From NCBI RefSeq assembly GCF_032191465.1, contig NZ_JAQOUE010000001.1, positions 1 through 64,000 on the forward strand: a stretch of DNA of 64,000 nt, written 5' to 3'. Shown here piece after piece: positions 12,650-57,479 of this stretch; the stretch's first letter is position 1, and each line of letters opens with the position of its first letter. Position numbers and translations under genes: made by a program. The notes beneath the pieces are model-generated. The model saw nothing but the letters and a program-made list of their open reading frames with translations, did not search any database and was not told the DNA's origin. Source of the DNA: Candidatus Nitronereus thalassa. GTDB lineage: Bacteria; Nitrospirota; Nitrospiria; Nitrospirales; UBA8639.

Positions 12650-12673
12650 GCGAAATTTTGAGAATGGCTTATT

Positions 12674-15600
12674 ATGATTGAAAAGATTATCGGTGCCAGT
12701 GCGAGAAATGGCTTTTTGATCGGGCTCATGGTGGTGTTTCTGACCGCCTGGGGGATCTGGGCCATCAAAAATACCCCACTCGACGCGCTCCCGGATCTGT
12801 CTGATGTGCAGGTGATCATCTTTACCGAATGGCCGGGACGCGCCCCGCAACTCGTCGAAGACCAGATTACGTATCCCATTGTCACCACCATGCTGGGCGC
12901 TCCCAAGGTCCAAGTCGTGAGAGGGTTTTCCTTTTTTGGCCTCTCCTTCATCTACGTCATTTTCGAAGATGGCACGGACATGTACTGGGCTCGAAGTCGG
13001 ATCCTGGAGTATATGAATGAAGCGTTGAAAGCCTTGCCAGAGGGCGTCCTTCCCACCCTGGGTCCAGACGCGACTGGCGTTGGGTGGGGATACGAATATG
13101 CTGTGATCGATAAGACGGGCAAGCATGATTTGTCGGAACTCCGAACCCTTCAAGACTGGTATATCCGGTATTGGCTGAAGGCGGTTCCCGGCGTATCGGA
13201 CGTGGCCAGTGTCGGTGGGTATGTGAAGCAATATCAGGTCAATATCGATCCCAATGCCATTCTGGCTTATAACCTGCCGTTAGATTCAATTGTGAGTGCG
13301 ATTCGAATGAGCAATAACGATGTCGGTGGCCGGGTGGTGGAATTCACCGGTCGGGAGTACATGGTCTGGGGACGCGGGTATGTGCAGTCCGTGGCAGATC
13401 TCGAGCAGGTGGCCGTGGGAACGAATGCCAAAGGCACCCCCATCCTCCTCAAGGATGTGGGGCGAATCGAACTGGGTCCTGATATACGGCGGGGGCTCGT
13501 GGAACTGGATGGCGAAGGGGAAGTGGCCGGCGGTATCGTGGTGATTCGATTCGGGGAGGACACGCTTGGGGTCATTGAACGGGTCAAGGCCAAAATTCAG
13601 GAAATGACCCCTTCGTTGCCTGAAGGTGTTGAGATTGTTTCCACCTATGACCGGTCTGAATTGATTCTGCGATCCATTGATACCCTCAAGGAGAAGCTGA
13701 TCGAAGAAAGCATCATCGTCAGCTTGATCACCATTGTGTTTCTCCTTCATTTTCGAAGCGCCTTGGTCGCCATTCTGACGCTCCCTTTAGCCATCCTCAT
13801 GTCAATTACCGCCATGTACTACCTGGGCATTAGCTCAAATGTCATGTCCCTCGGTGGTATTGCCATCGCCATTGGGGCGATGGTGGATGGCCCCATCGTC
13901 ATGATCGAAAACGCGCACAAGAAGCTGCAGCATGGTGGTCCCGGAGGGGATCGTGTGAGTCTCATTATTGAAGCCGCAAAGGAAGTTGGTAAACCACTCT
14001 TCTTTTCCCTCCTCATTATCACGGTATCATTTCTACCCGTCTTTACCTTGGAAGCGCAGGAAGGACGGCTGTTCCAGCCACTCGCCTACACCAAGACCTT
14101 CTCGATGGGGTTTGCGGCGCTACTGTCCATTACTCTTGTCCCCTTATTGATGGTCTTGTTAATCAGAGGGAAAATTGTCAGTGAAGAGCGGAACCCAATT
14201 GCTCGCTTCCTCATCGCGATCTATAAACCCGTGGCCCATCTCGTGTTCCGCTTTCGGAAAACAACGTTACTCTTGGCCGTGTTGGGCTTGGTCGCCACTG
14301 GACCGACGTTTCTGAAACTGGGATCCGAGTTTATGCCGCCGCTTTATGAAGGGACTCTCTTGTATATGCCGGTGACGCTGCCGGGCGCTTCCATCACGGA
14401 AATGCAGCGAATCCTCCAGGTTTCCGACCGAATCATCAAACAATTTCCCGAAGTGTCCCAGGTATTCGGGAAGGCCGGCAGGGCTCGGACGGCCACGGAT
14501 CCCGCTCCGTTGGAAATGATGGAGACCGTGATCAACCTGAAGCCCGAAGATCAATGGCGCCCGGGAATGACGATTAATCGTTTGGAAAACGAGCTGGACA
14601 AGGCGCTGCAAATACCCGGAGTGATTAATGCCTGGACGATGCCCATTAAAGGTCGCCTCGACATGCTCTCAACCGGCATCCGCACCCCCTTGGGAATCAA
14701 AATTTTTGGGACGGACTTGGAAACCATTCAAACAATCGGCGGGGATATCGAAAATGTCTTGCGGGATGTTCCGGGCACACGAAACATCTTTGCCGAGCGC
14801 ACGGCCGGGGGGTACTACGTCTATTTCAAGGTCAACCGAGAAGAGATTGCTCGGTACGGGCTCATGGTTGGGGACGTGGAACGGGTCATCGAATCGGCAA
14901 TCGGCGGAACGAATATCTCCACAACCATCGAAGGACGGGAGCGGTTCCCTATCAACCTGCGATATTCCCGTGGATTCCGCAACACGCTGGAGGACTTGAA
15001 ACGAGTCTTAGTGTCCACACCGAACGGACAGCAGATTCCCATTACCCAGTTGGCGGAGGTCAGCCTGATCTCGGGGCCGACAGTTGTCAAAAGCGAGGGA
15101 TCGATGTTGGTCGGGTATGTCTATGTGGACATAGCCGGACGAGACCTCGGGGGCTATGTTGATGAGGCCAAAAAGATCGTGGCTCAACAAGTCCAATTAC
15201 CTAAGGGGTACTATCTGGGTTGGAGCGGGCAGTACGAGTATATGCAACGGGCCGCCGCTCGGTTGATGTATGTGGTACCCCTGACTCTCCTCATTGTCTT
15301 TTTACTGCTCTATCTCAACTTTCGGTCCATCGCCAGGAGTCTCATCGTCCTTCTCTCGGTGCCCTTTGCTGCAATCGGGGCTATCTGGTCGCTATACCTT
15401 CTCGAATACGACTTGAGTGTCGCCGTTTGGGTTGGGATTATTGCCTTGGTTGGAGTGGCAGCTGAGATTGGGATTATCATGATTGCCTATTTGGATCAGA
15501 CCTATGCCAGCTGGACTGCTGAAGGCCGGCTTACCGATATGAAAGATCTGGTCGATGCCGTCATAGAAGGGAGTACGAAGCGAGTGCGTCCCATCCTCAT

Positions 15601-15835
15601 GACCGTCGGGTCGACGATTGCCGGGTTGCTTCCCATTATGTGGACCCATGGCAGTGGGGCCGATGTCACGAAGCGGATTGCGGCCCCGATGATTGGGGGC
15701 ATGGTGACGACCTTGCTGCTCACGCTCCTGGTTCTGCCGGCTATTTACATCATTTGGAGAGGATGGGAGTTAAGGAAAAAGGCAGCCATGCCAGGGTTGG
15801 AAGAACATCCCATACCTGAACATCATGAACCTTAA
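12674..15835 (+). CDS. cusA: CusA-like RND metal pump (operon 2)
   Basis: An HME-RND pump of 1053 aa with full-length transmembrane and porter domains. The TM4 motif GAMVDGPIVMIENAHKK and the porter motif RLDMLSTGIRTPLGIKI are close to Escherichia coli CusA, supporting Cu(I)/Ag(I) export. ARTATDPAPLEMMETV adds Met residues near the substrate path. It is paralogous to the pump at 6150. The next gene (broken TPR) follows 8 bp later, with copA and copB beyond, so efflux and periplasmic copper oxidation probably form one transcription unit. Confidence 0.93.
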   Translation: MIEKIIGASARNGFLIGLMVVFLTAWGIWAIKNTPLDALPDLSDVQVIIFTEWPGRAPQLVEDQITYPIVTTMLGAPKVQVVRGFSFFGLSFIYVIFEDGTDMYWARSRILEYMNEALKALPEGVLPTLGPDATGVGWGYEYAVIDKTGKHDLSELRTLQDWYIRYWLKAVPGVSDVASVGGYVKQYQVNIDPNAILAYNLPLDSIVSAIRMSNNDVGGRVVEFTGREYMVWGRGYVQSVADLEQVAVGTNAKGTPILLKDVGRIELGPDIRRGLVELDGEGEVAGGIVVIRFGEDTLGVIERVKAKIQEMTPSLPEGVEIVSTYDRSELILRSIDTLKEKLIEESIIVSLITIVFLLHFRSALVAILTLPLAILMSITAMYYLGISSNVMSLGGIAIAIGAMVDGPIVMIENAHKKLQHGGPGGDRVSLIIEAAKEVGKPLFFSLLIITVSFLPVFTLEAQEGRLFQPLAYTKTFSMGFAALLSITLVPLLMVLLIRGKIVSEERNPIARFLIAIYKPVAHLVFRFRKTTLLLAVLGLVATGPTFLKLGSEFMPPLYEGTLLYMPVTLPGASITEMQRILQVSDRIIKQFPEVSQVFGKAGRARTATDPAPLEMMETVINLKPEDQWRPGMTINRLENELDKALQIPGVINAWTMPIKGRLDMLSTGIRTPLGIKIFGTDLETIQTIGGDIENVLRDVPGTRNIFAERTAGGYYVYFKVNREEIARYGLMVGDVERVIESAIGGTNISTTIEGRERFPINLRYSRGFRNTLEDLKRVLVSTPNGQQIPITQLAEVSLISGPTVVKSEGSMLVGYVYVDIAGRDLGGYVDEAKKIVAQQVQLPKGYYLGWSGQYEYMQRAAARLMYVVPLTLLIVFLLLYLNFRSIARSLIVLLSVPFAAIGAIWSLYLLEYDLSVAVWVGIIALVGVAAEIGIIMIAYLDQTYASWTAEGRLTDMKDLVDAVIEGSTKRVRPILMTVGSTIAGLLPIMWTHGSGADVTKRIAAPMIGGMVTTLLLTLLVLPAIYIIWRGWELRKKAAMPGLEEHPIPEHHEP

Positions 15836-15843
15836 GGAAGGAG

Positions 15844-16292
15844 TTGCGATTGATCATTCACATAATGAACTCAATAAACCGGTTATTGGTAGCGTCCCTA
15901 CTGGGTGCGCTGGCGGTAGAGGGATATGCTGGCCCATCGCATTCCACAAAAGAAGCACCGCTGTCCCCACCCAAGCATGCCAGTCCTTTGGGCATGCCAT
16001 TGATCATCGAAGGCAATCGCCTTTCTGCTGAACGCACGTGGATGGTAGCGATCGGAAATACGAAGAAGCGATTCAATCCCAGCCCAAACTCGCAGAGGCT
16101 CATTACCATCTGGGACTGACGCTCTATCGGAAAGGGTCGCTGTTAGCAGCACAACCTCACTTTATTGAAGTGGCCAATTTAGCGCCAGGCCACCCTGCGA
16201 TTTGGAATGCTCCACCATTTCGTCAATATGGAACGGTGGAACCAGAGACTCAAGAACCAGCTCAGGATGGGCACACGGGGCATCAACATTAA
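15844..16292 (+). pseudogene. Frameshifted TPR protein gene
   Basis: The first frame gives a signal peptide and the start of a TPR unit (IEGNRLSAERTWM). A second frame from about 16040 gives KYEEAIQSQPKLAEAHYHLG and the conserved tail NAPPFRQYGTVEPETQE with a His-rich end. The intact homologue at 49285-49716 runs through both parts in one frame (LEGNKLFAEHQW, then AEAHYNLALTLEEQG, then the same tail). The break lies near 16040-16055. The likely start is TTG at 15844 after AAGGAAGGAG, with ATG at 15865 as the alternative. It may be a real pseudogene or a sequencing error. Confidence 0.75.
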
Positions 16293-16358
16293 ACCCTAGT
16301 AAAAAATCTGCAGGATGAAAAAGTCAATAACCTGGAAAGAACACAACGGAGTCTTAAA

Positions 16359-18230
16359 ATGAGCAATCAAAATAATGTGGTGACACGGCGTACGTTATTG
16401 CAAGGCATCGGAGCTTTGGGACTGACCACGGCCATGGCTCGCCTCATTCCTTCATATGTCTGGGCAAGCGGGACACGGGCAACCCTTCCCTCACAGTTGG
16501 ATGGAAACGTTATGCATCTCACCATCGCCGAGACACCCTTTCAAATTGGAGAACGAACTGGAATTGCGAAAACCATTAACGGCACATTACCCGGCCCTTT
16601 GCTCCGCCTGCAGGAAGGCCAACCAATCCGCCTCAACGTTACTAACCGTTTGAGAGAAGATACCTCCATTCATTGGCATGGATTGATTCTTCCACCGGAT
16701 ATGGACGGCGTGCCGGGTGTCAGTTTTGCCGGCATCAAACCAGCTTCTACCTTTTCCTACAACTATCCTGTTCAGCAGAACGGGACGTATTGGTATCACA
16801 GTCACTCTGGGGGTCAGGAGCAGTCGGGCGTGTACGGGCCGATCATTATCGATCCGATTGAACCGGAACCATTTCACTATGATCGCGATTATGTCGTGGT
16901 GCTCTCGGATTGGACGTTCGAGTCGCCGGAAGCGGTGTTCTCCAAACTCAAGAAACTAAGCAATTACTATAACTTCCAGAAACGAACGGCTTACGAGTTC
17001 CTTTCCGACGTTGGACGCCTGGGGTTATGGCCTGCACTTCAAAATTACCTGATGTGGGATGGGATGCGGATGGACCCGACGGACTTCGCGGACGTCACCG
17101 GATATGCCTACACCTACTTGATGAACGGTCTGTCACCCTCCGGTAATTGGACAGGCCTCTTTCGACCTGGCGAGCGGGTGCGTCTGCGTTTCATTGCTGC
17201 TGGAGCCATGACCTTCTTTGATGTGCGCATTCCCGGTGTCAAGATGACGGTCGTTCAAGCGGACGGACAAAACGTCCAGCCTGTGGTGGTGGACGAATTC
17301 CGCATCGGACCGGCAGAAACCTATGATGTCATCGTCGAACCCACAGAGGCTCGGGCCTATACCCTATTTGCCGAAACCTTGGATCGAAGCGGCTACGCAC
17401 GCGGCACGCTGGCTCCACGCGCGGGAATGACCGGCCCGCTTCCCGAACGTCGTCCGAGGCCGCTCCGCACCATGGCCGACATGGGCATGGTCATGGAAGG
17501 AATGAACATGGGAAGTATGGACATGTCCAGCATGAGCAAACCCACTCATGATGGGGGGAGCCACTCAACCCATCAGGAAATGGGGATGCACGGGAACCAG
17601 GCTATCCAACATATGCCAGACATGCCCCATAAGTCAGCGAGAGGGTCGGACGATCCACAGCACGGGACGATACCCGGCAGTACGCCCGTCAGGCATGGGC
17701 CCGATCATCACGGAACCGGCAACCAATCCGTCGCAGAGTATTCGTGGAATCAAAGTGGGAACCCCGGCAGAGGGTTGGATAACAGCGAGTGGCGCGTGTT
17801 GGTCTATACCGATTTAAAAAGCCTGGAACCCTACCCCGACCAACGGGAACCGCAACGGGAGATCGAACTCCACCTCACGGGCCACATGGAGCGATATATG
17901 TGGTCGTTCGACGGCAAGAAATACTCGGACGCAAAGGAGCCGATCCACTTCCGTTACGGCGAGCGGCTACGCCTGACCTTCATCAACGACACGATGATGG
18001 AGCACCCCCTGCACCTTCACGGAATGTGGATGCACCTGGAAAACGGCACGGGAGCTTACCTGCCACGTAAGCACACGGTCGTGGTCAAACCAGCCGAACG
18101 GGTATCCGTCGCGATCACGGCTGACGCCCCTGGACGGTGGGCCTTTCACTGCCACTTGCTTCTCCATATGGAAGCGGGGATGTTCCGAATCGTGGAAGTA
18201 ACCAGCCAAGAAGCAGAGGTGCAATCATGA
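16359..18230 (+). CDS. copA: CopA-type multicopper oxidase, Tat-exported
   Basis: A product of 623 aa that oxidises Cu(I) in the periplasm as part of copper resistance. A Tat-like signal (TRRTLLQGIGALGLTTAMAR) is followed by cupredoxin domains. All copper-site motifs are present: HWHGLILPPDMDG, YWYHSHSGGQEQSG, HPLHLHGMWMH and the type 1 site FHCHLLLHMEAGM. Between about residues 370 and 470 is a Met/His-rich insert (for example MNMGSMDMSSM), typical of CopA/PcoA and thought to bind Cu(I). The stop overlaps copB as ATGA. It sits directly after the Cus pump operon. Confidence 0.95.
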   Translation: MSNQNNVVTRRTLLQGIGALGLTTAMARLIPSYVWASGTRATLPSQLDGNVMHLTIAETPFQIGERTGIAKTINGTLPGPLLRLQEGQPIRLNVTNRLREDTSIHWHGLILPPDMDGVPGVSFAGIKPASTFSYNYPVQQNGTYWYHSHSGGQEQSGVYGPIIIDPIEPEPFHYDRDYVVVLSDWTFESPEAVFSKLKKLSNYYNFQKRTAYEFLSDVGRLGLWPALQNYLMWDGMRMDPTDFADVTGYAYTYLMNGLSPSGNWTGLFRPGERVRLRFIAAGAMTFFDVRIPGVKMTVVQADGQNVQPVVVDEFRIGPAETYDVIVEPTEARAYTLFAETLDRSGYARGTLAPRAGMTGPLPERRPRPLRTMADMGMVMEGMNMGSMDMSSMSKPTHDGGSHSTHQEMGMHGNQAIQHMPDMPHKSARGSDDPQHGTIPGSTPVRHGPDHHGTGNQSVAEYSWNQSGNPGRGLDNSEWRVLVYTDLKSLEPYPDQREPQREIELHLTGHMERYMWSFDGKKYSDAKEPIHFRYGERLRLTFINDTMMEHPLHLHGMWMHLENGTGAYLPRKHTVVVKPAERVSVAITADAPGRWAFHCHLLLHMEAGMFRIVEVTSQEAEVQS

Positions 18231-19057
18231 ACACGTCTCTTCGCCCCATTCTATGGCTGGCTGTGCTAGGTCTTTGGACAGTGCTACCTGACGCCTCAAT
18301 CGTTTTCGCTCAGACCATCCCCGGGGGTTCAACTCAAGAGGAGCACACTGTACCACACGTATCACCCAAGCCTGTTTGGCCCAGTCCGGTTGCGGATCAG
18401 GAAAACCACCTGTTTTTTCTCGCCGACGTTCTCGAGTACCGTCCAAACATAGGGGGAACGGGAAGTGATAGCGATTACCGATGGGACATCGAAGGTTGGT
18501 ATGGCGGGGACTACCACCGCATCTGGTTCAAAAGCGAAGGACAGCAAAACAGTGCCTTTAAAGCAGACTACGATGTCGATTCACAACTGCTCTATGGCCG
18601 TTTCATTCAGAAGTATTACGACTTTCAGGTGGGCCTTCGCCTGGAAACGCAATCATTCGAGGGAAGCAACGTCACGCGCGGGCTGGCGGTGATCGGGCTG
18701 CAGGGCCTTGTGCCTTATAACTACGAAATCGAGTCGGCCCTCTTCATTAGTCAGAGCGGCGACGTGTCCGCCCGCTTAACGGGGACCAAAGATTTGTTGT
18801 TGAGTCAACAACTGATCCTCCAGCTTCGTCTTGAAACGAATCTTGCGATCCAACGCGTCGAACGGTTCACGACAGGATCCGGACTCAACAACCTCGAAGG
18901 GGGAGTGCGCCTGCGCTATGAAATCCGACGCGAGTTCGCGCCCTACGTGGGAGTATCCCTGGAGAGAAGTTTTGGAGAGACCGCCGCTCTCGTGCGGCAA
19001 GAGGACGGAGACCCGAGTCAGGTTCGATTTGTGACAGGCGTGCGGATATGGTTTTGA
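18227..19057 (+). CDS. copB: CopB-type outer-membrane copper-resistance protein
   Basis: A product of 276 aa with a signal peptide (LWLAVLGLWTVLPDASIVFAQ) and the CopB/PcoB barrel sequence (FLADVLEYRPNIGG, DIEGWYGGDYHRIWFK, GVRIWF at the C-terminus). Members form an outer-membrane beta-barrel working with CopA. It lacks the long Met/His-rich N-terminal region of some homologues; only a short His/Pro segment follows the signal. The ATG at 18227 overlaps the copA stop. The ATG at 19048 lies within its end, but the true gdhA start is probably further on. Confidence 0.9.
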   Translation: MNTSLRPILWLAVLGLWTVLPDASIVFAQTIPGGSTQEEHTVPHVSPKPVWPSPVADQENHLFFLADVLEYRPNIGGTGSDSDYRWDIEGWYGGDYHRIWFKSEGQQNSAFKADYDVDSQLLYGRFIQKYYDFQVGLRLETQSFEGSNVTRGLAVIGLQGLVPYNYEIESALFISQSGDVSARLTGTKDLLLSQQLILQLRLETNLAIQRVERFTTGSGLNNLEGGVRLRYEIRREFAPYVGVSLERSFGETAALVRQEDGDPSQVRFVTGVRIWF

Positions 19058-29600: not shown

Positions 29601-30575
29601 ATGCGATTTTTGAATAATCTTCTTGAGCCTAAAAGAAGCTTCAGATTTACATTGGTTCTTTTCATGGTTGTAGGTCTCACACCACTTACGCCGGTATATA
29701 GTCAAAACACAATACTTGGCCCTCAACAACATCAAGGCAATCAGGATATTGATACTTCAATGACCATCAGTCAGCAGTTGGTAGAATTGCGTGGCAATAT
29801 TGCCCGCCTGGAAGCCGCGTTGGAACAAGATCACCGAGGGTCGGTGCCTTTGGCAAACACTCAGATGGGAATGGGCCCCATGGGGTGTGGAGAAGGAGGC
29901 TGCGGCTCACCCGGCTTGGGGATGAACACTGGAAAAATGAGTGGTATGGAGCAAGGCGGAATGGGCCCCATGGGAAAGATGGGAATGGGTTCCCAAAAAA
30001 TGGGCATGGGAAGCGGTTCAGGCATGCCAGGAATGGGAATGGAGAATATGGGGATGATGGGGAAGATGGGAATGGGTTCCCAAAAAATGGGCATGGGCAG
30101 CGGCCAAGGCATGCCGCGAATGGAAATGGAGAATATGGGAATGATGGGAAAAATGGGAACACGGAAAGGCCGAATGTCGGGGTCGGCCCTTCCTGGTTTT
30201 CCCGGAGCTTCCCACCTGTATCATATCGGGGCGACCGACTTTTTCTTAGATCATGGTGAGCACATCACGCTCACGTTGCAGCAAGAATCTGCCCTCAATC
30301 AAATCAAGGAACAAGCCCTGCTATCCCAAGCGACCTTTGATCGCCAACTGGAGCAAGCCGAGCAAGAGCTGTGGGTCTTGACGAGTTCGGATCAACCCGA
30401 AATGCAGAGGATCGAGCCAAAAGTCCAGCACATCGAAAAGTTAAAGGGGGATCAACGACTCGCCTTCATCCGTGCCGTGGGCGAGGCCGCCCAAGTGTTA
30501 ACCGCGCAGCAGCGACAGGTGCTGATTGGAACGGGATCGCCTCAGCCGAAGGCGCAGGGGGCTGAACAGAAATAA
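29601..30575 (+). CDS. Met/Gly-repeat periplasmic LTXXQ (Spy/ZraP-like) protein
   Basis: A 324-aa product with a signal peptide, a short helical part, then a Met/Gly-rich region (about residues 90-190). This contains two near-identical copies of a 29-residue unit (KMGMGSQKMGMGSGSGMPGM and similar), visible also in the DNA at about 29968-30155. The C-terminal half is an LTXXQ-type helical domain (ITLTLQQESALNQIKEQALL, then VLTAQQRQVLIGTG) as in Spy, CpxP and ZraP, periplasmic chaperone or metal-buffer proteins. The methionine count suits Cu(I)/Ag(I) binding. Pseudogene relics of related genes flank the next gene. AGGAGG precedes the ATG. Confidence 0.8.
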   Translation: MRFLNNLLEPKRSFRFTLVLFMVVGLTPLTPVYSQNTILGPQQHQGNQDIDTSMTISQQLVELRGNIARLEAALEQDHRGSVPLANTQMGMGPMGCGEGGCGSPGLGMNTGKMSGMEQGGMGPMGKMGMGSQKMGMGSGSGMPGMGMENMGMMGKMGMGSQKMGMGSGQGMPRMEMENMGMMGKMGTRKGRMSGSALPGFPGASHLYHIGATDFFLDHGEHITLTLQQESALNQIKEQALLSQATFDRQLEQAEQELWVLTSSDQPEMQRIEPKVQHIEKLKGDQRLAFIRAVGEAAQVLTAQQRQVLIGTGSPQPKAQGAEQK

Positions 30576-34203: not shown

Positions 34204-34299
34204 ATGTCCACCGCCAAAACGAAGTTGGTTGAGATTCGTTCTCACGCGCCCAACGACTTCGACGCCATGAACCGCATGATCGGGGTTGCGTTGCTATGA
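34204..34299 (+). CDS. 31-aa leader-like ORF overlapping the FNR fusion gene
   Basis: An ATG at 34204 after AAAGGA opens a 31-codon frame (MSTAKTKLVEIRSHAPNDFD...GVALL) whose TGA overlaps the next gene's ATG as ATGA. It could be a translational-coupling leader or the N-terminal stump of a lost gene. There is no family match I can name. Confidence 0.4.
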   Translation: MSTAKTKLVEIRSHAPNDFDAMNRMIGVALL

Positions 34300-36359
34300 C
34301 AGGCGGCTCTCTCGCAAGATCTCACCGCCAATGCTTTCTTGCTGTCGCGGCCATCGTTGCGTGGTTTTTAATGTTGGCGGGCATGGGTTACGCGCAAATC
34401 TCGCCAGAGGAACATGCCAGCCATCATCCCAATCAAGCCATGGGCTCAGGCGGAGTAGCAAGCGCCCAAAGACAAGAGGGCGGCCCCGGCAATATGGTTG
34501 GCGGTCCTTCAGGAGGAAAGGATGGAAGCCCAGGCGGCATGATGGGCGGGGGCATGGACAAAATGATGGAGAAAATGGGTGCGCCTAAACCCAAAGCCTT
34601 ATACCCCACACTCATGAGCCTTCCTGATTTGCCTTTTGAACAACGTGCCGAGGTCCAACAGCAGGCACATGAACGCATGAAGCAGGGGACAGCCTTGATG
34701 GCGGAAGGGATGAAATCTTTATCCCAGTCGGCCTCCACAAACGATTTTTTAGCTATGCAGGTAGCCTCTAGGAAGTTGCATGAGGGGCTGTCCCAATTCG
34801 AAAGTGGTCTGGCTGCCCATCGAGCATTGGCAGAAGGCACATCCCCGCGCAATGTCGCTCTGCAATGGTTCAAGCAGGAAATGAACCTGCTTCCTCCAAA
34901 TGAGGGTAAGCAGGACCATGGGATTTTAGGATTATCTTGGTTTCATTTCTCCGTGATGCTGCTCTTGGTCGGGTTTGCCGTGGCCATGTTATTTCTCTAC
35001 TTTTTCAAAATGCGCCGGGCGGCCGCGTTACTGAATCGGCTCGCTGAAGATTCCGGCCCTGTGAATTCTCCACCAGCCGCTGCTCCTGAGAAACCTGCGG
35101 CTGCCGCCGGCGAAACGCCGTCATCTGCTGGAGAGGATATACCATCAAATTTCCAAACAACATCTGCCCGTCCGCCTACGTCACAAGAGGCGAAAAGTCA
35201 GGCAACGGCTTCTGCCGAGTGCTGCGATGACTCGACGGAGGTGTGCGCAAACGAAGAGGCCCCATCAACAGATCAACCCGATATCTCGAAGGGACTCCTG
35301 CCCGTCGCTAAGAAGAAACTCTGTAGACTTCGGGTTGCCCAAATCTACCAGGAAACTGTGGACGTCAAGACTTTTCGGCTCGTGGCCTGTCATGGAGGGG
35401 GCATTCCCTTCAGTTATCTGCCTGGTCAATTTCTCACGTTAACCATGCCGACCGGCGACAAGCCGATTCGTCGGAGCTATACAATGTCCTCTTCCCCGAC
35501 TCAAGGATACTACTGCGAGATCACGGTTAAACGTGAAGAGCAAGGTGCCGGATCGCGCTATCTACACGACGCTGTCAAGGTAAACGACACGCTTGAGGTT
35601 CAAGCCCCGAGCGGGAAGTTTGTGTTTGCCGGGAAGGAAGCGGACAGCATTGTACTCATTTCCGGCGGCGTCGGCATCACCCCGATGATGAGTATCACCC
35701 GGGCATTGACCGACATGGGTTGGAATGGTGACATCTACTTCATCGCGGCGTGCCGCGATCCCGAACACCTCATCTTCCAGTCCGAATTGAAACGGCTTCA
35801 AGCGCGTCACCCCAACTTACACATCTTTATCGCCATGAGCCGTCTGGAAAAGGATGTCGACAGCTACCATCGCGGGCGGATTGCCAAGGATTTACTCGCG
35901 CAGTGGGTGCCCGACATTGCCTCGAAATGGATTCATCTGTGCGGGGCGCCGCCCATGATGGAGGCAGTGAAGCAGATGCTGGCCGAGTTGGGCGTTCCTG
36001 GGGAGAAGGTCCACACTGAAAACTTTGGCTCGCAGCAAAAACCACAGGTTAGAGCTGCAGAACGCGAGAAAATACAAAAAACGACGCCGGTCGAGAAGGC
36101 CGGGACCGTCACCTTTCAGAAATCGGATACATCGACAGAACTCATGCCGGACGAGACGGTGCTGGAGGCGTCCGAGCGGGTCGACGTCAACATCGACTAT
36201 TCCTGCCGAACCGGCTCGTGCGGAGTGTGCCGGGTTAAACTCTTGTCGGGGTCAGTGACTATGGAGGTCGAAGACGGCCTGGATCCAGACGACAAAGCCA
36301 GTGGAATGATTCTCGCTTGTCAGGCCAAGTCCACAGGAAACGTGGCGGTCGATGCCTAG
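34296..36359 (+). CDS. Membrane flavoprotein: Met-rich exported domain + FNR + 2Fe-2S
   Basis: A 687-aa product with an unusual domain order. It starts with a signal/anchor (AIVAWFLMLAGMGYAQ), then a His/Met/Gly-rich part (residues 30-100) and a helical exported domain (100-210). A transmembrane helix follows (about 220-243, FSVMLLLVGFAVAMLFLYFF), then a Pro/Ala linker with CC and C residues. The ferredoxin-reductase module has FAD motif RRSYTMSS and NAD motif GGVGITPMMS, and a C-terminal plant-type 2Fe-2S domain has CRTGSCGVC...C. It should pass electrons from NAD(P)H through FAD and 2Fe-2S to a membrane partner, probably the protein at 36375. The start overlaps a short upstream frame. Confidence 0.85.
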   Translation: MTGGSLARSHRQCFLAVAAIVAWFLMLAGMGYAQISPEEHASHHPNQAMGSGGVASAQRQEGGPGNMVGGPSGGKDGSPGGMMGGGMDKMMEKMGAPKPKALYPTLMSLPDLPFEQRAEVQQQAHERMKQGTALMAEGMKSLSQSASTNDFLAMQVASRKLHEGLSQFESGLAAHRALAEGTSPRNVALQWFKQEMNLLPPNEGKQDHGILGLSWFHFSVMLLLVGFAVAMLFLYFFKMRRAAALLNRLAEDSGPVNSPPAAAPEKPAAAAGETPSSAGEDIPSNFQTTSARPPTSQEAKSQATASAECCDDSTEVCANEEAPSTDQPDISKGLLPVAKKKLCRLRVAQIYQETVDVKTFRLVACHGGGIPFSYLPGQFLTLTMPTGDKPIRRSYTMSSSPTQGYYCEITVKREEQGAGSRYLHDAVKVNDTLEVQAPSGKFVFAGKEADSIVLISGGVGITPMMSITRALTDMGWNGDIYFIAACRDPEHLIFQSELKRLQARHPNLHIFIAMSRLEKDVDSYHRGRIAKDLLAQWVPDIASKWIHLCGAPPMMEAVKQMLAELGVPGEKVHTENFGSQQKPQVRAAEREKIQKTTPVEKAGTVTFQKSDTSTELMPDETVLEASERVDVNIDYSCRTGSCGVCRVKLLSGSVTMEVEDGLDPDDKASGMILACQAKSTGNVAVDA

Positions 36360-36374
36360 AGCATGTGAAAACTG

Positions 36375-37139
36375 ATGAAGGAACGTGAAGCCGTCACGAT
36401 TACTGGTCTGGTACTCTTTCTGGCCCTCTTCTGGCTCGGGTTTCTTTTCCACCAGTCGCCACGGTTTGCAGGGAGTTTGTGGGGTGGGGTGTTTGGCGTG
36501 AGCGGGGCGACGCTGATGCTTGTTCCACTGGCATACCTCATCATCAAACGAGTGAAAACTTTCAAACAGGCAGTGACTCGACGTGTGTCGATGCGTACGC
36601 TGCTCGCATGGCACATCTATGCCGGTGTCGTGGGACCCATTCTCGTGCTCTTCCATACGGGCCATAAGTTTGAAAGTCCCTTAGGAATTGCCTTAACCAG
36701 CATGACAGTCATTGTCGTGTTGAGTGGATTCACCGGCCGCTATCTCATGGGTCGGATTTCTCAAGAGATTAAAGAAAAACGAACCATGCTCGACGGGTTG
36801 AACGCCTCGTACCAGGAGACGTTGCAACGGCTGCGAACCTGCTGCGCGGATAAAACGGCTCAACTCAAACCCTTTGATGGCTTTTTCTCCAGGTTGTTGG
36901 GAGGGGCATTTTTCAGTGTGCAGGAACAGGAGACGGAAACAATGTCCATCGGCCTCCGTGCCATTCGGCTTTCTGATGCGATTGCCGACCTGGAATACGC
37001 CATCAAAACGCATGACACCATCAAACACATGTTTACCTTGTGGCTGAGAATTCACATCACCTTATCCATGGTACTCTACACGCTCCTCGCCTTCCATATT
37101 TGGGCAGCCATTCACTTTGGATTGCGGTGGTTTTCATGA
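36375..37139 (+). CDS. Four-helix membrane protein, likely b-type cytochrome
   Basis: A 254-aa integral membrane protein with hydrophobic segments near residues 8-27, 34-58, 80-125 and 225-250. Histidines lie in or near helices (LLAWHIYAGVVGPILVLFHTG, RIHITLSMVLYTLLAFHIW), as expected for haem ligation. A soluble loop with CC lies between. It follows the FNR/2Fe-2S fusion after 15 bp, so it is probably its electron acceptor. The last 23 codons are repeated as a relic at 46041-46134 in front of a seven-haem cytochrome c, suggesting that such a cytochrome was once the next gene. Confidence 0.75.
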   Translation: MKEREAVTITGLVLFLALFWLGFLFHQSPRFAGSLWGGVFGVSGATLMLVPLAYLIIKRVKTFKQAVTRRVSMRTLLAWHIYAGVVGPILVLFHTGHKFESPLGIALTSMTVIVVLSGFTGRYLMGRISQEIKEKRTMLDGLNASYQETLQRLRTCCADKTAQLKPFDGFFSRLLGGAFFSVQEQETETMSIGLRAIRLSDAIADLEYAIKTHDTIKHMFTLWLRIHITLSMVLYTLLAFHIWAAIHFGLRWFS

Positions 37140-46151: not shown

Positions 46152-46952
46152 ATGGGTAAGCTGGGAATTGTTGCTATCACGCTACTCACGATCGTAGGGG
46201 GATTAGGCCTTGTCTATACCAGCGTCGGAACCCCGATGGCTGCCAACACCTGGCAGCAATTGGTCAATCCAGGGGAACTCTCCGTTGTCCATGCTTCTCT
46301 GGAACAGAATTGCGCAGCCTGCCATACCGCGGTCATGGGAGTGGATGCGACGAAGTGCATCCTTTGCCATGCCAATGAGGAATCGCTCCTGCAGCGTCAG
46401 CCGACGGCCTTTCATGCCGACGTCAGAGAATGTCGATCCTGCCACCACGAACATCGAGGGCACGTTCGAAAGCCCTCGAATATGGATCACCGGGCTCTGG
46501 CCAAGATTGGCTTACTCAACCTCCCGAGTGATGAAAATTCATTCGGCGAAGCAGAAATGGTGCGCTGGAACCTGACGAATTGGCTTGAGCATTCAGAAGT
46601 GCTATTGCCTTCACCGCTTGCCAATCATCACGTCGCACCAGAAGAAGCCATTTTGAACTGTGCCACTTGTCACAAAAACGATGACCGGCATTTTGAACTC
46701 TTTGGCCAGGATTGTGCGGCCTGCCATGCCACCCAGGCCTGGACCCTTCCCGAATTCCAGCATCCCCCCGGTAACTCAATGGATTGCGTCCATTGTCATC
46801 AAGCGCCACCCAGCCATTATATGAAGCATTTCACCATGATTTCGCAAAGAGTGGCTGGCCAGCCACAGGCCAGAGTGGATCAGTGCTTTTTATGCCATCA
46901 GACCACCTCATGGCCGGATATTAAAAGAGCCGGGATGTATAAACATCATTAA
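46152..46952 (+). CDS. Membrane-anchored seven-haem cytochrome c
   Basis: A 266-aa product. An N-terminal transmembrane anchor (GIVAITLLTIVGGLGLVYTS) is followed by seven CXXCH haem motifs: CAACH, CILCH, CRSCH, CATCH, CAACH, CVHCH and CFLCH, with many extra histidines as likely distal ligands. It should be a periplasmic multihaem electron carrier fed from the quinone pool or from a b-type partner. It is preceded by the relic of a membrane b-type gene whose intact copy lies 9 kb away after the FNR fusion, suggesting a former FNR/b-type/c-type electron-transfer operon. Confidence 0.9.
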   Translation: MGKLGIVAITLLTIVGGLGLVYTSVGTPMAANTWQQLVNPGELSVVHASLEQNCAACHTAVMGVDATKCILCHANEESLLQRQPTAFHADVRECRSCHHEHRGHVRKPSNMDHRALAKIGLLNLPSDENSFGEAEMVRWNLTNWLEHSEVLLPSPLANHHVAPEEAILNCATCHKNDDRHFELFGQDCAACHATQAWTLPEFQHPPGNSMDCVHCHQAPPSHYMKHFTMISQRVAGQPQARVDQCFLCHQTTSWPDIKRAGMYKHH

Positions 46953-52762: not shown

Positions 52763-53275
52763 ATGAACTCTTCCGAAGGCGAAGGCCGCCGAACATTTTT
52801 GGGATGGGTGAGTGGAGGTATTGCTGCGGCAATTGGCCTGGTGGTTGGAATGCCCCTCGTGGGTTACACGATTTTGCCAGCCCTGAAGCGACGAGAAGCG
52901 GAATGGAATGATGTGGGCACAGTGCAATCCCTCCAACCCGGGATTCCCAAGGAAATGGATTGCATTCATTCCATTGCCGACGGATGGCAGAAAACCGCCA
53001 CCAAAAAGTCGCTTTGGGCTGTCAAGGACGATGCTGGAGCGGTGACGGTCTACTCGCCTCTCTGCACTCACCTCGGCTGTGGCTATCGGTGGGAGGCGGA
53101 TCAGCAGAAGTTCCATTGCCCTTGCCATCATAGTTTTTTTGCCTTGGATGGGAAGGTCCTATCAGGGCCAGCGCCTCGCCCCCTGGACATACTCCCGGCA
53201 AAAATTGAAAAGGGCCGGCTGTTGGTGCTCTACAAAGAATTTAAGGCGGGGACGGCGGCGAAGATTGAATTGTAA
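52763..53275 (+). CDS. Rieske 2Fe-2S protein of a bc-type complex
   Basis: A 170-aa product. An N-terminal membrane/Tat-like anchor (RRTFLGWVSGGIAAAIGLVV) is followed by the Rieske fold with both cluster motifs: CTHLGCGYRW and CPCHHSFFALDGKVLSGPAP. It passes electrons from quinol at the cytochrome b Qo site to a c-type cytochrome. AAGGAA lies before the ATG. It is the first gene of a four-gene module with cytochrome b/c, a monohaem cytochrome c and a porin-cytochrome. Confidence 0.93.
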   Translation: MNSSEGEGRRTFLGWVSGGIAAAIGLVVGMPLVGYTILPALKRREAEWNDVGTVQSLQPGIPKEMDCIHSIADGWQKTATKKSLWAVKDDAGAVTVYSPLCTHLGCGYRWEADQQKFHCPCHHSFFALDGKVLSGPAPRPLDILPAKIEKGRLLVLYKEFKAGTAAKIEL

Positions 53276-53302
53276 TAGTCATCTTGAGGCAAGGAGGGCT
53301 GT

Positions 53303-54619
53303 GTGGGACGGCGAATTTTTCGATGGCTAGATGAGCGGTTAAACCTAGGACCGGTAAAGATCGCGCTCTTGAACGAACCGATTCCCGGGGGGGCGAGCTG
53401 GATCTACGTCTTCGGCAGCATCACGCTGTTTTTCTTTCTGCTCCAAATGGTCACTGGCATGTTTCTCGCCATCTATTACTCGCCCTCGACCGAACATGCG
53501 TATATGAGTGTTCGCTACATCATGGACGAAGTTGCATTCGGCTCATTCATCCGCGGGCTTCACCACTGGGGAGCGAGCGCCATGATGGTGGTCATTGGGC
53601 TACACATGTTGCAGGTGTTCTTGTACGGCGCTTACAAACGGCCACGTGAGTTGATGTGGATTGTCGGGGTGGTGCTGTTGATCCTGACGTTGGCGTTTGG
53701 ATTCAGCGGCTACCTCCTGCCGTGGGATCAGCGGGCCTATTGGGCCACCCAGGTTGGAATCAATATCGTGGGAACAATCCCGTTGGTTGGCGATTCACTC
53801 GTTCGAATCATCCGTGGAGGCCAAAATCTTGGCGCCATGACTCTGAATCGGTTCTATGCCCTGCACACACTCTTTCTTCCCTGGCTGGTGATGGCTTTGG
53901 TTGCCCTTCATCTTTTTGTTTTGCGTAGAGTTGGACCGGCAGGACCCTGGGATGAAGTTCGTGCAGCTCGACTCCAGGAACCTTTCTGGCCGAAACAAGT
54001 GGCCATGGATGCCGTGGCGATTGGCCTGGCATTTCTCATCGTGGTGGCCTTTGCCATCGGAAGCCCTGCGCCGCTCGCCGATCCGGCTAATCCCTCGGAT
54101 ACCAGTTTCATGCCATTACCTGAATGGTACTTTCTCTTTTATTACCAGCTTCTCAAATACTTGGAAGGTCCCTGGGAGATCGTGGGAACTCTTGTCCTTC
54201 CGATTCTGTTTTTTGCGGCTCTCTTCCTGCTCCCTTGGCTGGACCGCCGAAGAGAACGGCGGCCTTTTTCGCGATCAGTGGTGATGAGCGCAGGTGCCGG
54301 CTTTCTCGTGTTGGTTTTTACGCTCCTGACCATCTCGATCTGGGAAGTGGCGTCTCTTCCCAAAATTGATCCCTCGGTCCATCGGGGGAAAGTCTTGTAC
54401 CAAGAACTTGACTGTGCAGGTTGCCATCGCATCCATGGGGAAGGCGAGGCCTTTGCCCCGGACCTGTCCTATGTTGGGGATTATCGAGACAGGGATTGGT
54501 TGATCCGGCATTTCAAGGATCCACAGGCGGTAGTTCCGGACTCGGACATGCCGGAATACGGGCTGAATGAGCAGGAGCTGAATGACCTCACCAACTATAT
54601 GTTGGTATTGAAACGGTAA
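53303..54619 (+). CDS. Cytochrome b (b6 + subunit IV type) fused to cytochrome c
   Basis: A 438-aa product joining three parts. Residues 1-215 form a cytochrome b6-like part with the haem ligands in LHHWGASAMMVVIGLHMLQV and ALHTLFLPWLVMALVALHLF. Residues 215-350 form a subunit IV-like part with the Qo motif PEWYFLFYYQLL. The C-terminal cytochrome c domain has CAGCH and a distal Met in DSDMPEYGL. Such b-c fusions replace separate cytochrome f or c1. The start is GTG after AAGGAGG. It follows the Rieske gene after 27 bp and forms a complete quinol-oxidising complex with it. Confidence 0.93.
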   Translation: MGRRIFRWLDERLNLGPVKIALLNEPIPGGASWIYVFGSITLFFFLLQMVTGMFLAIYYSPSTEHAYMSVRYIMDEVAFGSFIRGLHHWGASAMMVVIGLHMLQVFLYGAYKRPRELMWIVGVVLLILTLAFGFSGYLLPWDQRAYWATQVGINIVGTIPLVGDSLVRIIRGGQNLGAMTLNRFYALHTLFLPWLVMALVALHLFVLRRVGPAGPWDEVRAARLQEPFWPKQVAMDAVAIGLAFLIVVAFAIGSPAPLADPANPSDTSFMPLPEWYFLFYYQLLKYLEGPWEIVGTLVLPILFFAALFLLPWLDRRRERRPFSRSVVMSAGAGFLVLVFTLLTISIWEVASLPKIDPSVHRGKVLYQELDCAGCHRIHGEGEAFAPDLSYVGDYRDRDWLIRHFKDPQAVVPDSDMPEYGLNEQELNDLTNYMLVLKR

Positions 54620-54689
54620 GGATACAGCATGGCTCGCTCACGAGGGATGAGCGATGAGAATGAAATTAGCTTTTCACAAAGGAGGCGTG

Positions 54690-55169
54690 ATGAGTAAGGC
54701 CGGCAAGATTATGAAAGGTATTCTCACCCTATCGGGTCTGGTTATGACCATGATCCTCTTCAGTTCGGGTGAGGCGCTCCCAATCTTTGGTTTCTCCGAG
54801 GATGAGAAAAAGCTTAAAGAGCACTCTGTTCAGATTCCCCCTGAATATCAAGGCAAACAAATGCCGAACGGATGGTTGACGGATCCGAAGGTGCTTGCTG
54901 TAGGAAAGGCCATTTATGAAGGCACCGGGAATTCCGACGTCAACTGCGCGGGATGTCACGGCATTGACGGCAAACCCACTAGGAAAGGAAAAGGAGCGCC
55001 CGATCTTTCCGATCCTCAAGAAGCTCAAAAAAGTAATGCCCAGTGGTTTTGGGAAATTTCTGAGGGAAAGCGTCGGACCAAAATGCAAGGCCATGCGAAG
55101 CACCTCACCGAGGAGGAGCGTTGGCAGGTGATTGCCTACATGCGGACCTTTGCTCAATCAGCAAAGTAA
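54690..55169 (+). CDS. Monohaem cytochrome c
   Basis: A 159-aa product with an N-terminal membrane/signal segment (GILTLSGLVMTMILFSSGEA) and one haem site (NCAGCHGIDGKPTRKGKGAP), with a likely Met ligand near TKMQGHAKHLTEEE. It resembles the class I cytochromes with a GxPxL motif (KGAPDLS). The ATG at 54690 has AAAGGAGG in front. It lies between the bc-complex genes and the outer-membrane porin-cytochrome, so it is a natural periplasmic shuttle between them. Confidence 0.9.
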   Translation: MSKAGKIMKGILTLSGLVMTMILFSSGEALPIFGFSEDEKKLKEHSVQIPPEYQGKQMPNGWLTDPKVLAVGKAIYEGTGNSDVNCAGCHGIDGKPTRKGKGAPDLSDPQEAQKSNAQWFWEISEGKRRTKMQGHAKHLTEEERWQVIAYMRTFAQSAK

Positions 55170-55265
55170 GTAAAGTCGGGTCTGTTTGTGGCGGAAGGCC
55201 GGTCCGCCCTCAACCATCAATGTTTACAGTGCTATCAAAACCATTTTTCATTCAAGGAGGATACC

Positions 55266-56486
55266 ATGAGAAAATTTCTGGTCACCATGCTGGCACTAGC
55301 GACGATCTGTGTCAGCCTGGCAATTCTGGTTCCACCTAATCCGGCTTCAGCGGTTCCATCTTTTTCCCGGCTGCATGGCTTGCCATGTAATGAATGTCAT
55401 TCCGCATTCCCCCGTCTCAATCCGTTTGGGATGGACTATAAGCAGCGCGGGTATCGACTTCCCGGAGAAGAGGGGCTCTTCATTTGGGATCAGAAAACGC
55501 TTCCGATTTCAGCATTAGCCGTAGGCCGACTTCGCATCAGCCATCAGGACAATCCCGTAACCGGCGCGCGAACGCGCACCCGGAGCCGGTTCGAACTCGA
55601 AGAAGTGGAGTTGATGGTTGCCGGTACTGCTGCGCCAAAAGTGGGATATTTATTGGAGTTTGCACAAGAAGTGGCTGATGGTGAGGAATTTGGCACGGAG
55701 CAAGCCTGGGTTCAATTCAGCGACCTGCTACCCGCAAGTCTCCTTAATCTACGAGCGGGAATGATGCTCAACGAATTTTATTTCATCTCCCAAAAACGGC
55801 GGTTAACATTCCAGCGATACCTTTCTCCGATTACGTTCAACGTCACTGGGGTGGAACTCAATGGAACGTGGAGACGCTTGCGATTCGCCGGGGGAGTTGT
55901 CAACGATGAGCGATCATCCAGCACGAGTACACCTCCCAATACTCCGGCAGTCAATTTGGAAACTAGATTGCAGGGCTATTACGTGTGGGGAACCTATACC
56001 ATCGCGGATCAGACTCTCGGCATCCGCTATATCAATACCAAATCCAATTCCGACAATCCTTCGCCGGTCATCGATGGCCGAAATCGTCAGCAACTGGATG
56101 CCACAGTGAATCTGTGGTTTGCCCCGGTCGAAGTGATTCTCGGGTATTTTCATAATTTTGATATAGGCGGGGTCAACAGGCAACAACGGCGAAGTTTTTT
56201 GGCGGAAGGAATCGTGGAAGTTATACCGGAAAAACTCTTCCTCGACACACGGTTTGAATTACAAGACACGGCTTTTGTGACCGGGAGTCCGAATAATCCA
56301 ACGACCGCGAATGGGACGCAGGTGACAGCGAATCTCACATACTATTTACTTCCGAACATACGGTTGATCGCCGAATTCGACAAAGTCAGCGGAGAAGGAT
56401 TGGGGGTCTTTGCGTTTGCCGGTCCCAACTCGAGTGCCACTAACAGTGAAGAAAGATATATGGTTGGTTTTCAGATAGGACTTTGA
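55266..56486 (+). CDS. Outer-membrane monohaem porin-cytochrome (Cyc2-like)
   Basis: A 406-aa product. A signal peptide (VTMLALATICVSLAILVPPN) is followed by one haem motif in a characteristic context, FSRLHGLPCNECHSAFPRLN then PFGMDYKQRGY. The remaining 340 residues are an alternating beta-strand barrel ending in a terminal aromatic-rich strand (YMVGFQIGL). One N-terminal CXXCH followed by a barrel is the plan of Cyc2, the outer-membrane iron oxidase of acidophilic and neutrophilic Fe(II) oxidisers. The match is by architecture and the N-terminal motif only. AAGGAGG precedes the ATG. Directly downstream of the bc module. Confidence 0.8.
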   Translation: MRKFLVTMLALATICVSLAILVPPNPASAVPSFSRLHGLPCNECHSAFPRLNPFGMDYKQRGYRLPGEEGLFIWDQKTLPISALAVGRLRISHQDNPVTGARTRTRSRFELEEVELMVAGTAAPKVGYLLEFAQEVADGEEFGTEQAWVQFSDLLPASLLNLRAGMMLNEFYFISQKRRLTFQRYLSPITFNVTGVELNGTWRRLRFAGGVVNDERSSSTSTPPNTPAVNLETRLQGYYVWGTYTIADQTLGIRYINTKSNSDNPSPVIDGRNRQQLDATVNLWFAPVEVILGYFHNFDIGGVNRQQRRSFLAEGIVEVIPEKLFLDTRFELQDTAFVTGSPNNPTTANGTQVTANLTYYLLPNIRLIAEFDKVSGEGLGVFAFAGPNSSATNSEERYMVGFQIGL

Positions 56487-56621: not shown

Positions 56622-57479
56622 TCAAAATGAGCCAAGAATTTCTTTCCGTTTCTTCTGGTATTCCGGCTCACTGATCAGCCCCTCCTGGTGCCAGGATTTG
56701 AGCTGACGGAGTTTGTGTTCCGCTGAAGAAGGAAGGGGTTCCGAGGGTTGGGAAGGTGCTGCGATAACAGGTTCCTTGGAATCTTGTGCAGGACCCAGAA
56801 ACTGGTCGTACCCGATCAAAAGTGTCAATGGAGAGAAACTTTGGGATAAGGCGACCGATGATTCTCGATTTGTGAGAATGGTTTGATGGGGGCCTGGCAC
56901 GATGTGGAAATCTGGTTTAGCAAGCGGCTTCAGTGGCGTTTCTCTCGCTTGCTCTCTTTTTCGCTCACCTGCGGCTGGTCTATTCACGTTGGCCAGTACG
57001 ACGGCAAGTTGTGTTCCTTGTACGAACAGAGCTCCTGAGGTGATGACTGGGATGCCATCTTCTCGTGGCCGGTTCACCAAAAAGACGACCATTTCCTCAG
57101 GCTGGGCTTTGGCAAAGGCTGTCTTTATTTGAGGAGCAAGAAGCTCGGCGATGTCGGGAGGAAAGACCGATTGGGGTTGTGTGTCCTCTCGGAAGACATA
57201 ATAATCGAGCAGGCTGACCTCTTTCTGGAATTTTATGGACTGCAAAATCAGAGAAAGATCCTGTGACGTGAATTCAATAGGATGGCTATTGGGCTCGGCT
57301 CGCGTCTCTCCAGGAAATAAAGGACTGTCCAGCCTGACCATCAGAACGGGATCCTGAAAAACAGATCGGGAAAACGTAGGAGAGTTGCCGCAACCAGACA
57401 GAAGGACAGCGATGAATAAAGCGATAATCAGAAACCCCTTGCACAATGTCGTTTGGTTTGCGGCTATTAGAAATCGCAT
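56622..57479 (-). CDS. Lipoprotein with C-terminal SHOCT-like domain
   Basis: A 285-aa product with a lipobox (IALFIAVLLSGCGNS). The middle is a beta-rich domain of unknown type (TSQDLSLILQSIKFQKEVSL, MVVFLVNRPREDGIPVITSG). The last 30 residues (KLRQLKSWHQEGLISEPEYQ and KKRKEILGSF) form a SHOCT-like short domain, common at the C-terminus of many unrelated proteins. It is encoded opposite to the porin-cytochrome gene, divergent from the TrxB-like gene. Function unknown. Confidence 0.75.
   Translation of the reverse strand: MRFLIAANQTTLCKGFLIIALFIAVLLSGCGNSPTFSRSVFQDPVLMVRLDSPLFPGETRAEPNSHPIEFTSQDLSLILQSIKFQKEVSLLDYYVFREDTQPQSVFPPDIAELLAPQIKTAFAKAQPEEMVVFLVNRPREDGIPVITSGALFVQGTQLAVVLANVNRPAAGERKREQARETPLKPLAKPDFHIVPGPHQTILTNRESSVALSQSFSPLTLLIGYDQFLGPAQDSKEPVIAAPSQPSEPLPSSAEHKLRQLKSWHQEGLISEPEYQKKRKEILGSF

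Follow-up and report, generated by a model that had tools for sequence, protein, structure and literature searches.

The window, the whole 64,000-nucleotide stretch analysed here, comes from a member of the Nitrospirales, GTDB family UBA8639, that is probably a nitrite oxidiser. Four consecutive genes on one strand encode a Rieske iron-sulphur subunit, a cytochrome b fused to a cytochrome c domain, a monohaem cytochrome c and a one-haem porin (Table 1), separated by gaps of 27, 70 and 96 bp. The sequence-only reading had described this succession and a single N-terminal CNECH in the porin; the order was confirmed by the ORF coordinates, Pfam and the sister operons, and the lone CXXCH was found as described. 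The identical order was observed in five genomes from two families, the window genome included. The other carriers are NPIRA02 (L065/G242), ERR2094167_bin.119 (L066), J017 (L068) and a genome of the second Nitrospirales family (G282, L034), and this repetition argues that the arrangement is not due to chance. In comparisons with L065 and L066, dN/dS was 0.06–0.21 across the four genes and 0.07–0.08 for the porin; all four are under purifying selection. Promoter and terminator scans gave scores no better than shuffles. The operon contains no MtrCAB-like genes, as neither a decahaem MtrA-type nor a 26-strand MtrB/PioB porin match was found in Pfam or NCBIfam.

Table 1. Features of the operon and of the associated module in the window.
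Feature	Position	Strand	Details
Met-rich periplasmic Metal_resist-like protein	29601..30575	+	Pfam PF13801, E 0.00097, below cut-off
Membrane flavoprotein	34296..36359	+	Pfam FAD_binding_6, NAD_binding_1, Fer2
Polytopic membrane protein with paired His, putative b-type cytochrome	36375..37139	+	254 aa; from hydropathy and His positions
Heptahaem c cytochrome	46152..46952	+	7 CXXCH; Pfam Cytochrom_c3_2, 7.7e-6
Rieske iron-sulphur subunit, third bc complex	52763..53275	+	170 aa; CTHLGC, CPCHHS; Pfam PF00355, E 1.9e-9
Cytochrome b fused to C-terminal monohaem c domain	53303..54619	+	438 aa from a GTG start; PEWY; CAGCH at aa 371
Exported monohaem cytochrome c	54690..55169	+	159 aa from ATG 54690; ORF opens 54654; Pfam Cytochrom_C, 8.1e-12
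Cyc2-like outer-membrane porin-cytochrome	55266..56486	+	406 aa; ATG after AAGGAGGATACC; one CXXCH at aa 41

The bc complex of the operon is the third in the genome. Like other Rieske/cytochrome b (bc/b6f-type) complexes it has a c-type haem subunit, Rieske cluster boxes, a PEWY-type Qo motif and four histidines for haem b, and the histidines (87/88, 101, 188 and 203), PEWY and the Rieske CTHLGC and CPCH boxes are all intact. The haem-ligand spacing of the cytochrome b is b6-type. The fusion matched Pfam Cytochrome_B (1.4e-57) and Cytochrom_C (6.1e-10), as well as Cytochrom_B_C, and the Rieske subunit is 63–81% identical to those of the sister operons. We gave no weight to a Tyr-to-Phe change in the Rieske subunit as a porin-related sign, since bc copies that have no porin linked to them show it too. 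The ATG of the monohaem cytochrome c has a better ribosome site (AAAGGAGGCGTG) than the opening of its ORF, and the protein is 38% identical to the cytochrome c of the main bc operon.

Porin and its relation to Cyc2

This genome has a single copy of the porin. Its N-terminus is hydrophobic over residues 1–27 and continues with ASA-VP; we delimited a signal peptide (about 1–29), a haem domain (AVPSFSRLHGLPCNECHSAFPRLNPFG) and a predicted beta-barrel (about 80–406). As set out by Keffer et al. (2021), Cyc2 proteins have a signal peptide, exactly one CXXCH near the N-terminus, PXL after the haem site and a length of at least 365 residues, all of which were found in the window porin (CNECHSAFPRL at the haem site). 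The strict motif before the haem site, AXPXFAR[Q/K][T/Y], was not: the porin reads AVPSFSRLH, which keeps A, P, F and R but replaces A by S, Q/K by L and T/Y by H. Because of this departure from the strict published motif, the porin is, as judged by its sequence, Cyc2-like and not a certified Cyc2.

The porin belongs to no Pfam or NCBIfam family, and neither its sequence nor its profile gave a meaningful match in Pfam, NCBIfam or PDB sequences. A haem-domain profile matched (E 8e-18) Cyc2 homologues from Pseudomonadota plasmids, the references being those of Caballeronia, Paraburkholderia, Ideonella, Methylocystis and A. ferrooxidans/Acidiphilium and not the canonical chromosomal Cyc2 of Mariprofundus/Acidithiobacillus. 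The barrel-only profile matched those Nitrospirota proteins that carry the strict Cyc2 motif (E 2.8e-21) and had no detectable similarity to the plasmid homologues, so our claim of barrel homology is based on the strict-motif Nitrospirota proteins. In the maximum-likelihood tree the porin nested beside these proteins (support 98/83). The Cyc2 criteria also call for a 16-strand porin plugged by the haem domain; beta-dyad periodicity had a z of 2.5 over residues 75–406, with 16 peaks at an arbitrary cut-off and none in soluble controls; periodicity and homology together point to a predicted barrel. Of the Cyc2 plan proposed from the letters, homology to the Cyc2 group was supported by profiles and tree, but the strict motif was not preserved (FSRLH).

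Porin–bc linkage and the surrounding island

Close relatives of the porin were present in 8 of the 295 phylum genomes, and nearly all copies had an operon-type cytochrome c directly upstream. The bc clade (cytochrome b/c at least 75% identical) was found in 5/295 genomes, four of which also hold a close porin (P about 1e-6 if independent), and a flavoprotein module, likewise in 5/295, was accompanied by a close porin in all five (P about 3e-9 if independent); both P values are overstated, as the genomes share descent.

G139, a genome of another family, carries the same bc clade directly downstream, on one strand, of genes for OmcA/MtrC-type, decahaem MtrA-type, MtrB/PioB-type and UspA-like proteins, a different Cyc2-like porin, a small cytochrome c and a TM-anchored cytochrome c. 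All three Mtr-type genes exceed the NCBIfam cut-offs. The bc complex is not obligatory for the porin, because in four Nitrospira genomes or MAGs (G117, G276, G260 and MAG-286) a TM-anchored cytochrome c replaces the bc genes beside it. The earlier proposal of a path from outer membrane to quinone pool was strengthened in that co-occurrence, shared gene order and G139 tie the bc complex specifically to the porin; the conduit itself we infer. Given the G139 conduit and the co-occurring module, the electron-transfer link is stronger than sequence alone had suggested.

The flavoprotein of the module comprises a signal/TM segment (10–35), a Met-rich segment, a second TM segment (209–240) and FAD, NAD(P)H and 2Fe-2S domains. 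The putative membrane b-type cytochrome, with no family match in Pfam or NCBIfam, comes after it in 5/5 module genomes and is followed by the heptahaem cytochrome in G242, G117, G276 and G260. In G276 and MAG-286 the module is directly downstream of the porin, with the Met-rich protein between porin and flavoprotein. We set aside the idea that the module lifts electrons from Fe(II) up to NAD, since these would have to run inward against the membrane potential and across a large potential gap.

Genes for Cus efflux, a multicopper oxidase and sugar catabolism also lie in the island around the operon. In 8/8 close-porin genomes, CusBA RND genes were no more than about 45 kb away from the porin or from its bc genes; CusA was at least 56% identical, and gene orders differed. 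Multicopper oxidase was found in the window, G242, G117, G276 and G260. The sugar genes of the window encode G6PDH, 6PGDH, transaldolase, glucokinase and GH15, and phosphorylase and GH57 are present in the islands.

Proposed electron conduit and rival readings

We favour, with reasonable confidence, the reading that the operon is an electron conduit spanning the cell envelope, its likeliest use being the oxidation of an external reduced metal. At the outer membrane the Cyc2-like porin, with one covalent haem in its N-terminal plug, would trade electrons with a small soluble substrate. The operon cytochrome c would ferry electrons through the periplasm, and the third bc complex, as its domains and intact ligands suggest, would join it to the quinone pool via the fused c domain. 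The external metal, Fe(II) by precedent, would be oxidised and its electrons split between oxidases and an uphill path through the bc complex. The two other bc complexes of the genome serve ordinary respiration, which we count in favour of a dedicated conduit. Against the conduit stand the deviating Cyc2 motif, the undetected similarity to plasmid-Cyc2 barrels, the dispensable bc complex, and island neighbours for copper efflux and sugar catabolism with no known iron-oxidation genes among them. Within the conduit reading, inward metal oxidation has about an even chance; outward electron disposal seems less probable, and metal detoxification less probable still. Candidate substrates are Fe(II), Mn and Cu, or an external acceptor if electrons flow outward. 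Uphill flow from Fe(II), as first suggested, is one option; the NAD(P)H flavoprotein module that co-occurs with the porin, and the neighbours for copper efflux and sugar catabolism, agree at least as well with outward flow or metal homeostasis.

Outward extracellular electron transfer under oxygen shortage, with Fe(III), Mn(IV) or a different acceptor at its end, is unlikely, though to be taken seriously. Quinol would deliver electrons via the bc complex, and NAD(P)H via flavoprotein, membrane haem b and heptahaem c, to cytochrome c and porin; the fuel would be stored glucan, routed through the island's own oxidative pentose phosphate enzymes, and the sugar and glucan genes listed above agree with such a supply. 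The residues after the second TM segment of the flavoprotein (FFKMRRAAALLNR) suggest a cytoplasmic NAD(P)H domain, from which flow along the membrane potential would be outward. The restriction of the module to close-porin genomes, its position directly 3′ of the porin in G276 and MAG-286, the Mtr-type neighbours of the bc clade in G139 and a Cyc2 isoform reportedly involved in Fe(III) reduction by acidithiobacilli (PMC10715153) point the same way. However, Fe(II) oxidation is the activity of the Cyc2 proteins tested biochemically (PMC8406198), the module is not present on J017's short contig or in G270 and G282, neighbourhood does not prove shared function, and the topology is a hydropathy prediction.

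Redox homeostasis of metals, chiefly copper, in which the island would shift the redox state of a toxic metal, whether periplasmic or at the cell surface, appears rather improbable. The porin-cytochrome would oxidise Cu(I), or the flavoprotein reduce Cu(II), feeding the Cus efflux pump and multicopper oxidase. The consistent proximity of CusBA, the recurring multicopper oxidase, the Met-rich protein and the Met-rich flavoprotein segment are compatible with this role, but copper-resistance genes are frequent island passengers, it is not obvious what the bc complex and the Mtr genes of G139 would do in copper efflux, and copper activity is known for no Cyc2 relative. That an extra respiratory bc complex and an unrelated outer-membrane protein share only a transcript is the least credible reading: no bc genes lie beside the porin in G117, G108, G276 and G260, and they occur within four genes at only about 7 of ~80 surveyed Nitrospirota porin-cytochrome loci, but the linkage needs at least three changes on the porin tree, equal to three porin lineages, against a very low background of the bc clade (5/295).

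A wider and speculative view, to which we give little credence as a whole, is that of a transferable envelope-spanning island in nitrite-oxidising Nitrospirales, with the porin wired to the bc complex and to the NAD(P)H flavoprotein/haem b/heptahaem chain. When nitrite or oxygen is missing, glucan would be burnt and electrons dumped outside, or electrons taken up from metals.

Comparison with known systems

Among nitrite oxidisers the Nitrospirales are a major group, and their Cyc2-like genes are listed in several papers with no mechanism given. The operon is probably a dedicated wire between the cell and outside metals. Its own bc complex, the Mtr-adjacent bc clade of G139 and the NAD(P)H-linked module are named partners, so electron exchange of nitrifiers with iron, manganese, copper and electrodes becomes testable gene by gene.

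Like the Cyc2 of Mariprofundus, Acidithiobacillus and Leptospirillum (Cyt572) reported by Keffer et al. (2021; PMC8406198), the window porin has a signal peptide and one N-terminal CXXCH, AxPxF and PxL flanking the haem site, more than 365 residues, a downstream beta-barrel-like region and an adjacent cytochrome c gene. It differs in its core motif (FSRLH, not FAR[Q/K][T/Y]) and in sharing an operon with a bc complex. A cytochrome c gene beside the porin is a known Cyc2 arrangement (PMC10715153). Earlier papers record cyc2-like genes for UBA8639 and Nitrospira MAGs (PMC11995701, PMC12070406) and across Nitrospirales generally (PMC9040806). These lineages are the same and the genes are of one kind with the window porin; the papers take their presence as potential iron/manganese oxidation, and in the accessible text neither the bc operon nor the island is described. 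We found no report of either in the literature searched.

The Nitrospira complex III CIII_2 of N. moscoviensis (PMC6606698) also combines a Rieske protein with a fused cytochrome b/c, whereas the window copy forms a separate clade and is linked to cytochrome c and porin, not to a dihaem c. The window cytochrome b/c is about 60% identical to the paralogue in its own genome. The MtrCAB, MtoAB and PioAB conduits are related through G139, where the bc clade of the operon adjoins such genes; unlike them, the window porin has one fused haem and no separate decahaem. With the rus and petI operons of Acidithiobacillus ferrooxidans (PMC10654088), the window shares a Cyc2-type porin and a bc-type partner complex. 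In A. ferrooxidans, cyc2 and bc1 lie in separate operons and serve one Fe(II) electron network. In the window, by contrast, the Cyc2-like porin and the bc complex are encoded in a single operon, a union of Cyc2-type porin and complex III that stand apart in the described iron oxidisers.

The bc-porin operon and its Cyc2-like porin

The sequence-only reading had placed a Rieske protein, a cytochrome b/c fusion, a cytochrome c and a porin consecutively in one operon, and the gene calls of the window bore out both positions and order. Pfam matched the Rieske protein, the cytochrome b with its C-terminal cytochrome c fusion, and the separate cytochrome c; no Pfam or NCBIfam model matched the porin. 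The bc complex has the full set of catalytic ligands. For the cytochrome c, 54690 is the likely start, preferred over 54654 because of its better ribosome site. Compared with the two nearest relatives, dN/dS of the four genes was 0.06-0.21, and therefore all four are maintained.

Features of the operon, its surroundings and a related locus (window positions unless stated otherwise)
Feature	Position	Strand	Remark
Rieske protein	52763-53275	+	
Cytochrome b/c fusion	53303-54619	+	
Cytochrome c (longest ORF)	54654-55169	+	
Porin	55266-56486	+	
Lipoprotein gene	56622-57479	minus	convergent; marks end of operon
Met-rich protein of module	29601-30575		
Module flavoprotein and putative membrane cytochrome b	34296-37139		
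Heptahaem cytochrome c of module	46152-46952		
Copper/silver-efflux island: two CusCBA sets, multicopper oxidase, CopB-like protein	17-19057		adjoins glutamate dehydrogenase and oxidative pentose phosphate genes
MtrC/MtrA/MtrB-type, UspA-like, Cyc2-like porin, cytochrome c, membrane-anchored cytochrome c, Rieske, cytochrome b/c, cupredoxin-like	L091 (G139:C70:8000-27000), 8576-18988	one strand	in a row

According to Keffer and colleagues, Cyc2 has one CXXCH, a barrel and >365 aa, with the haem site preceded by AXPXFAR[Q/K][T/Y] and followed by PXL (PMC8406198). The window porin keeps this motif frame (AVPSFSRLHGLPCNECHSAFPRL) and differs at three motif positions. In profile comparisons, residues 1-55 matched plasmid-borne Pseudomonadota Cyc2 homologues (E 8e-18), and the barrel part alone matched three strict-motif Nitrospirota proteins (L045, L046, L048; E 2.8e-21); reversed-sequence controls were negative. 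The same three proteins and the window porin clade share a 21-row group (98/83) in a maximum-likelihood tree of 83 sequences. Hydrophobicity of residues 75-406 alternates above shuffles (z 2.5), a pattern not found in soluble proteins of the window. Based on profiles, tree and periodicity, we treat the porin as Cyc2-like and a Cyc2 homologue, as the earlier proposal of a Cyc2 plan had it, yet the motif departures leave it short of a certified Cyc2.

A separate conserved locus type (L116-L136 and similar) encodes a widespread Nitrospira subfamily of 459-490 aa with the strict motif FARKY..., followed by a dihaem c gene and, two genes further, an RND-like gene (~980 aa). On plasmids of Methylocystis (L100), A. 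ferrooxidans (L104) and Acidiphilium (L105), Cyc2-family genes precede c-cytochrome genes, annotated as hypothetical; the segment is nearly identical between the latter two, pointing to its transfer.

Genomic partners of the porin

Among 295 Nitrospirota genomes, close homologues of the porin occurred in eight and the bc clade (cytochrome b/c at least 75% identical to the window copy) in five, with both in four (P about 1e-6, if genomes are independent). The gene order Rieske, b/c, cytochrome c, porin is common to NPIRA02, ERR2094167_bin.119, J017 and one genome of a second family; several Nitrospira (L035, L037, L070, L071) carry a membrane-anchored monohaem c instead of the bc genes. In the fifth bc-clade genome (G139, another family), the bc genes are preceded by a Cyc2-like porin of a different kind, a small cytochrome c and a membrane-anchored c. 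Upstream of these, on the same strand, are OmcA/MtrC, DmsE-type decahaem and MtrB/PioB genes, each scoring above its NCBIfam cut-off. The bc clade therefore accompanies two kinds of outer-membrane electron conduit. At L144 (G192:C5, another Nitrospirota family), a Cyc2-like porin with the strict motif has an unrelated Rieske and cytochrome b pair three genes downstream.

In two Nitrospira genomes (G276, MAG-286), a module of genes in the same orientation comes after the porin. It encodes a Met-rich protein, a membrane flavoprotein that combines FAD, NAD(P)H and 2Fe-2S domains, a paired-histidine membrane protein and a heptahaem c. Module genes also lie at 29.6-47 kb of the window and near the porin in NPIRA02, ERR2094167_bin.119 and G117 (Nitrospira). 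All five genomes with the flavoprotein, out of 295, hold the close porin (P about 3e-9, if genomes are independent). In 8/8 porin genomes, a CusA-type pump lies no more than about 45 kb from the porin or from the bc genes that accompany it, and most of these genomes have multicopper oxidase, glycogen phosphorylase or GH57 genes nearby; the window additionally has G6PDH, 6PGDH, transaldolase, glucokinase and GH15. Since content is kept while gene order varies among genomes, the island of operon, module, copper and sugar genes seems to have been repeatedly rearranged. Near the opposite contig end, a CusA (G000:C1:3348098-3351211) is 91% identical to that of the window; on a circular chromosome, the island may thus extend past the contig ends.

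Proposed electron path and comparison with known systems

Anatomy and co-occurrence best support an envelope-spanning path, in which electrons would run between porin, cytochrome c, bc complex and quinone. Our first choice for its direction is inward, with a soluble metal ion oxidised at the porin, because of the precedent of tested Cyc2 proteins. Outward electron disposal is a serious rival, favoured by the predicted topology of the NAD(P)H module and by the sugar-oxidation genes of the island. Metal homeostasis, to which the copper genes would point, comes third.

With its 64 kb, the window makes up the beginning of a 3.36-Mb contig. The genome totals 4.0 Mb, and its named relatives are Nitrospirales MAGs, including NPIRA02 and a UBA8639 MAG. 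The genome encodes three molybdopterin proteins of ~1150 aa from the type II DMSO-reductase group, which we take to be NxrA-like, and one cbb3-like oxidase; the host is thus probably a nitrite oxidiser.

Published accounts report Cyc2-like genes in UBA8639 MAGs (PMC11995701), in sand-filter Nitrospira (PMC12070406) and across Nitrospirales generally (PMC9040806), and there is precedent for a Cyc2 paired with a c cytochrome (PMC10715153). The open-access literature searched yielded no account of the operon that joins bc genes to the porin, of the arrangement in G139 or of the island; given this scope, the result is weak evidence of novelty. The operon copy is one of three bc complexes in the genome. 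The main complex is grouped with bd-like genes and several c-type cytochromes, which matches the CIII_1 arrangement of N. moscoviensis, and the second, a Rieske protein with a fused b/c, resembles its CIII_2 (PMC6606698).
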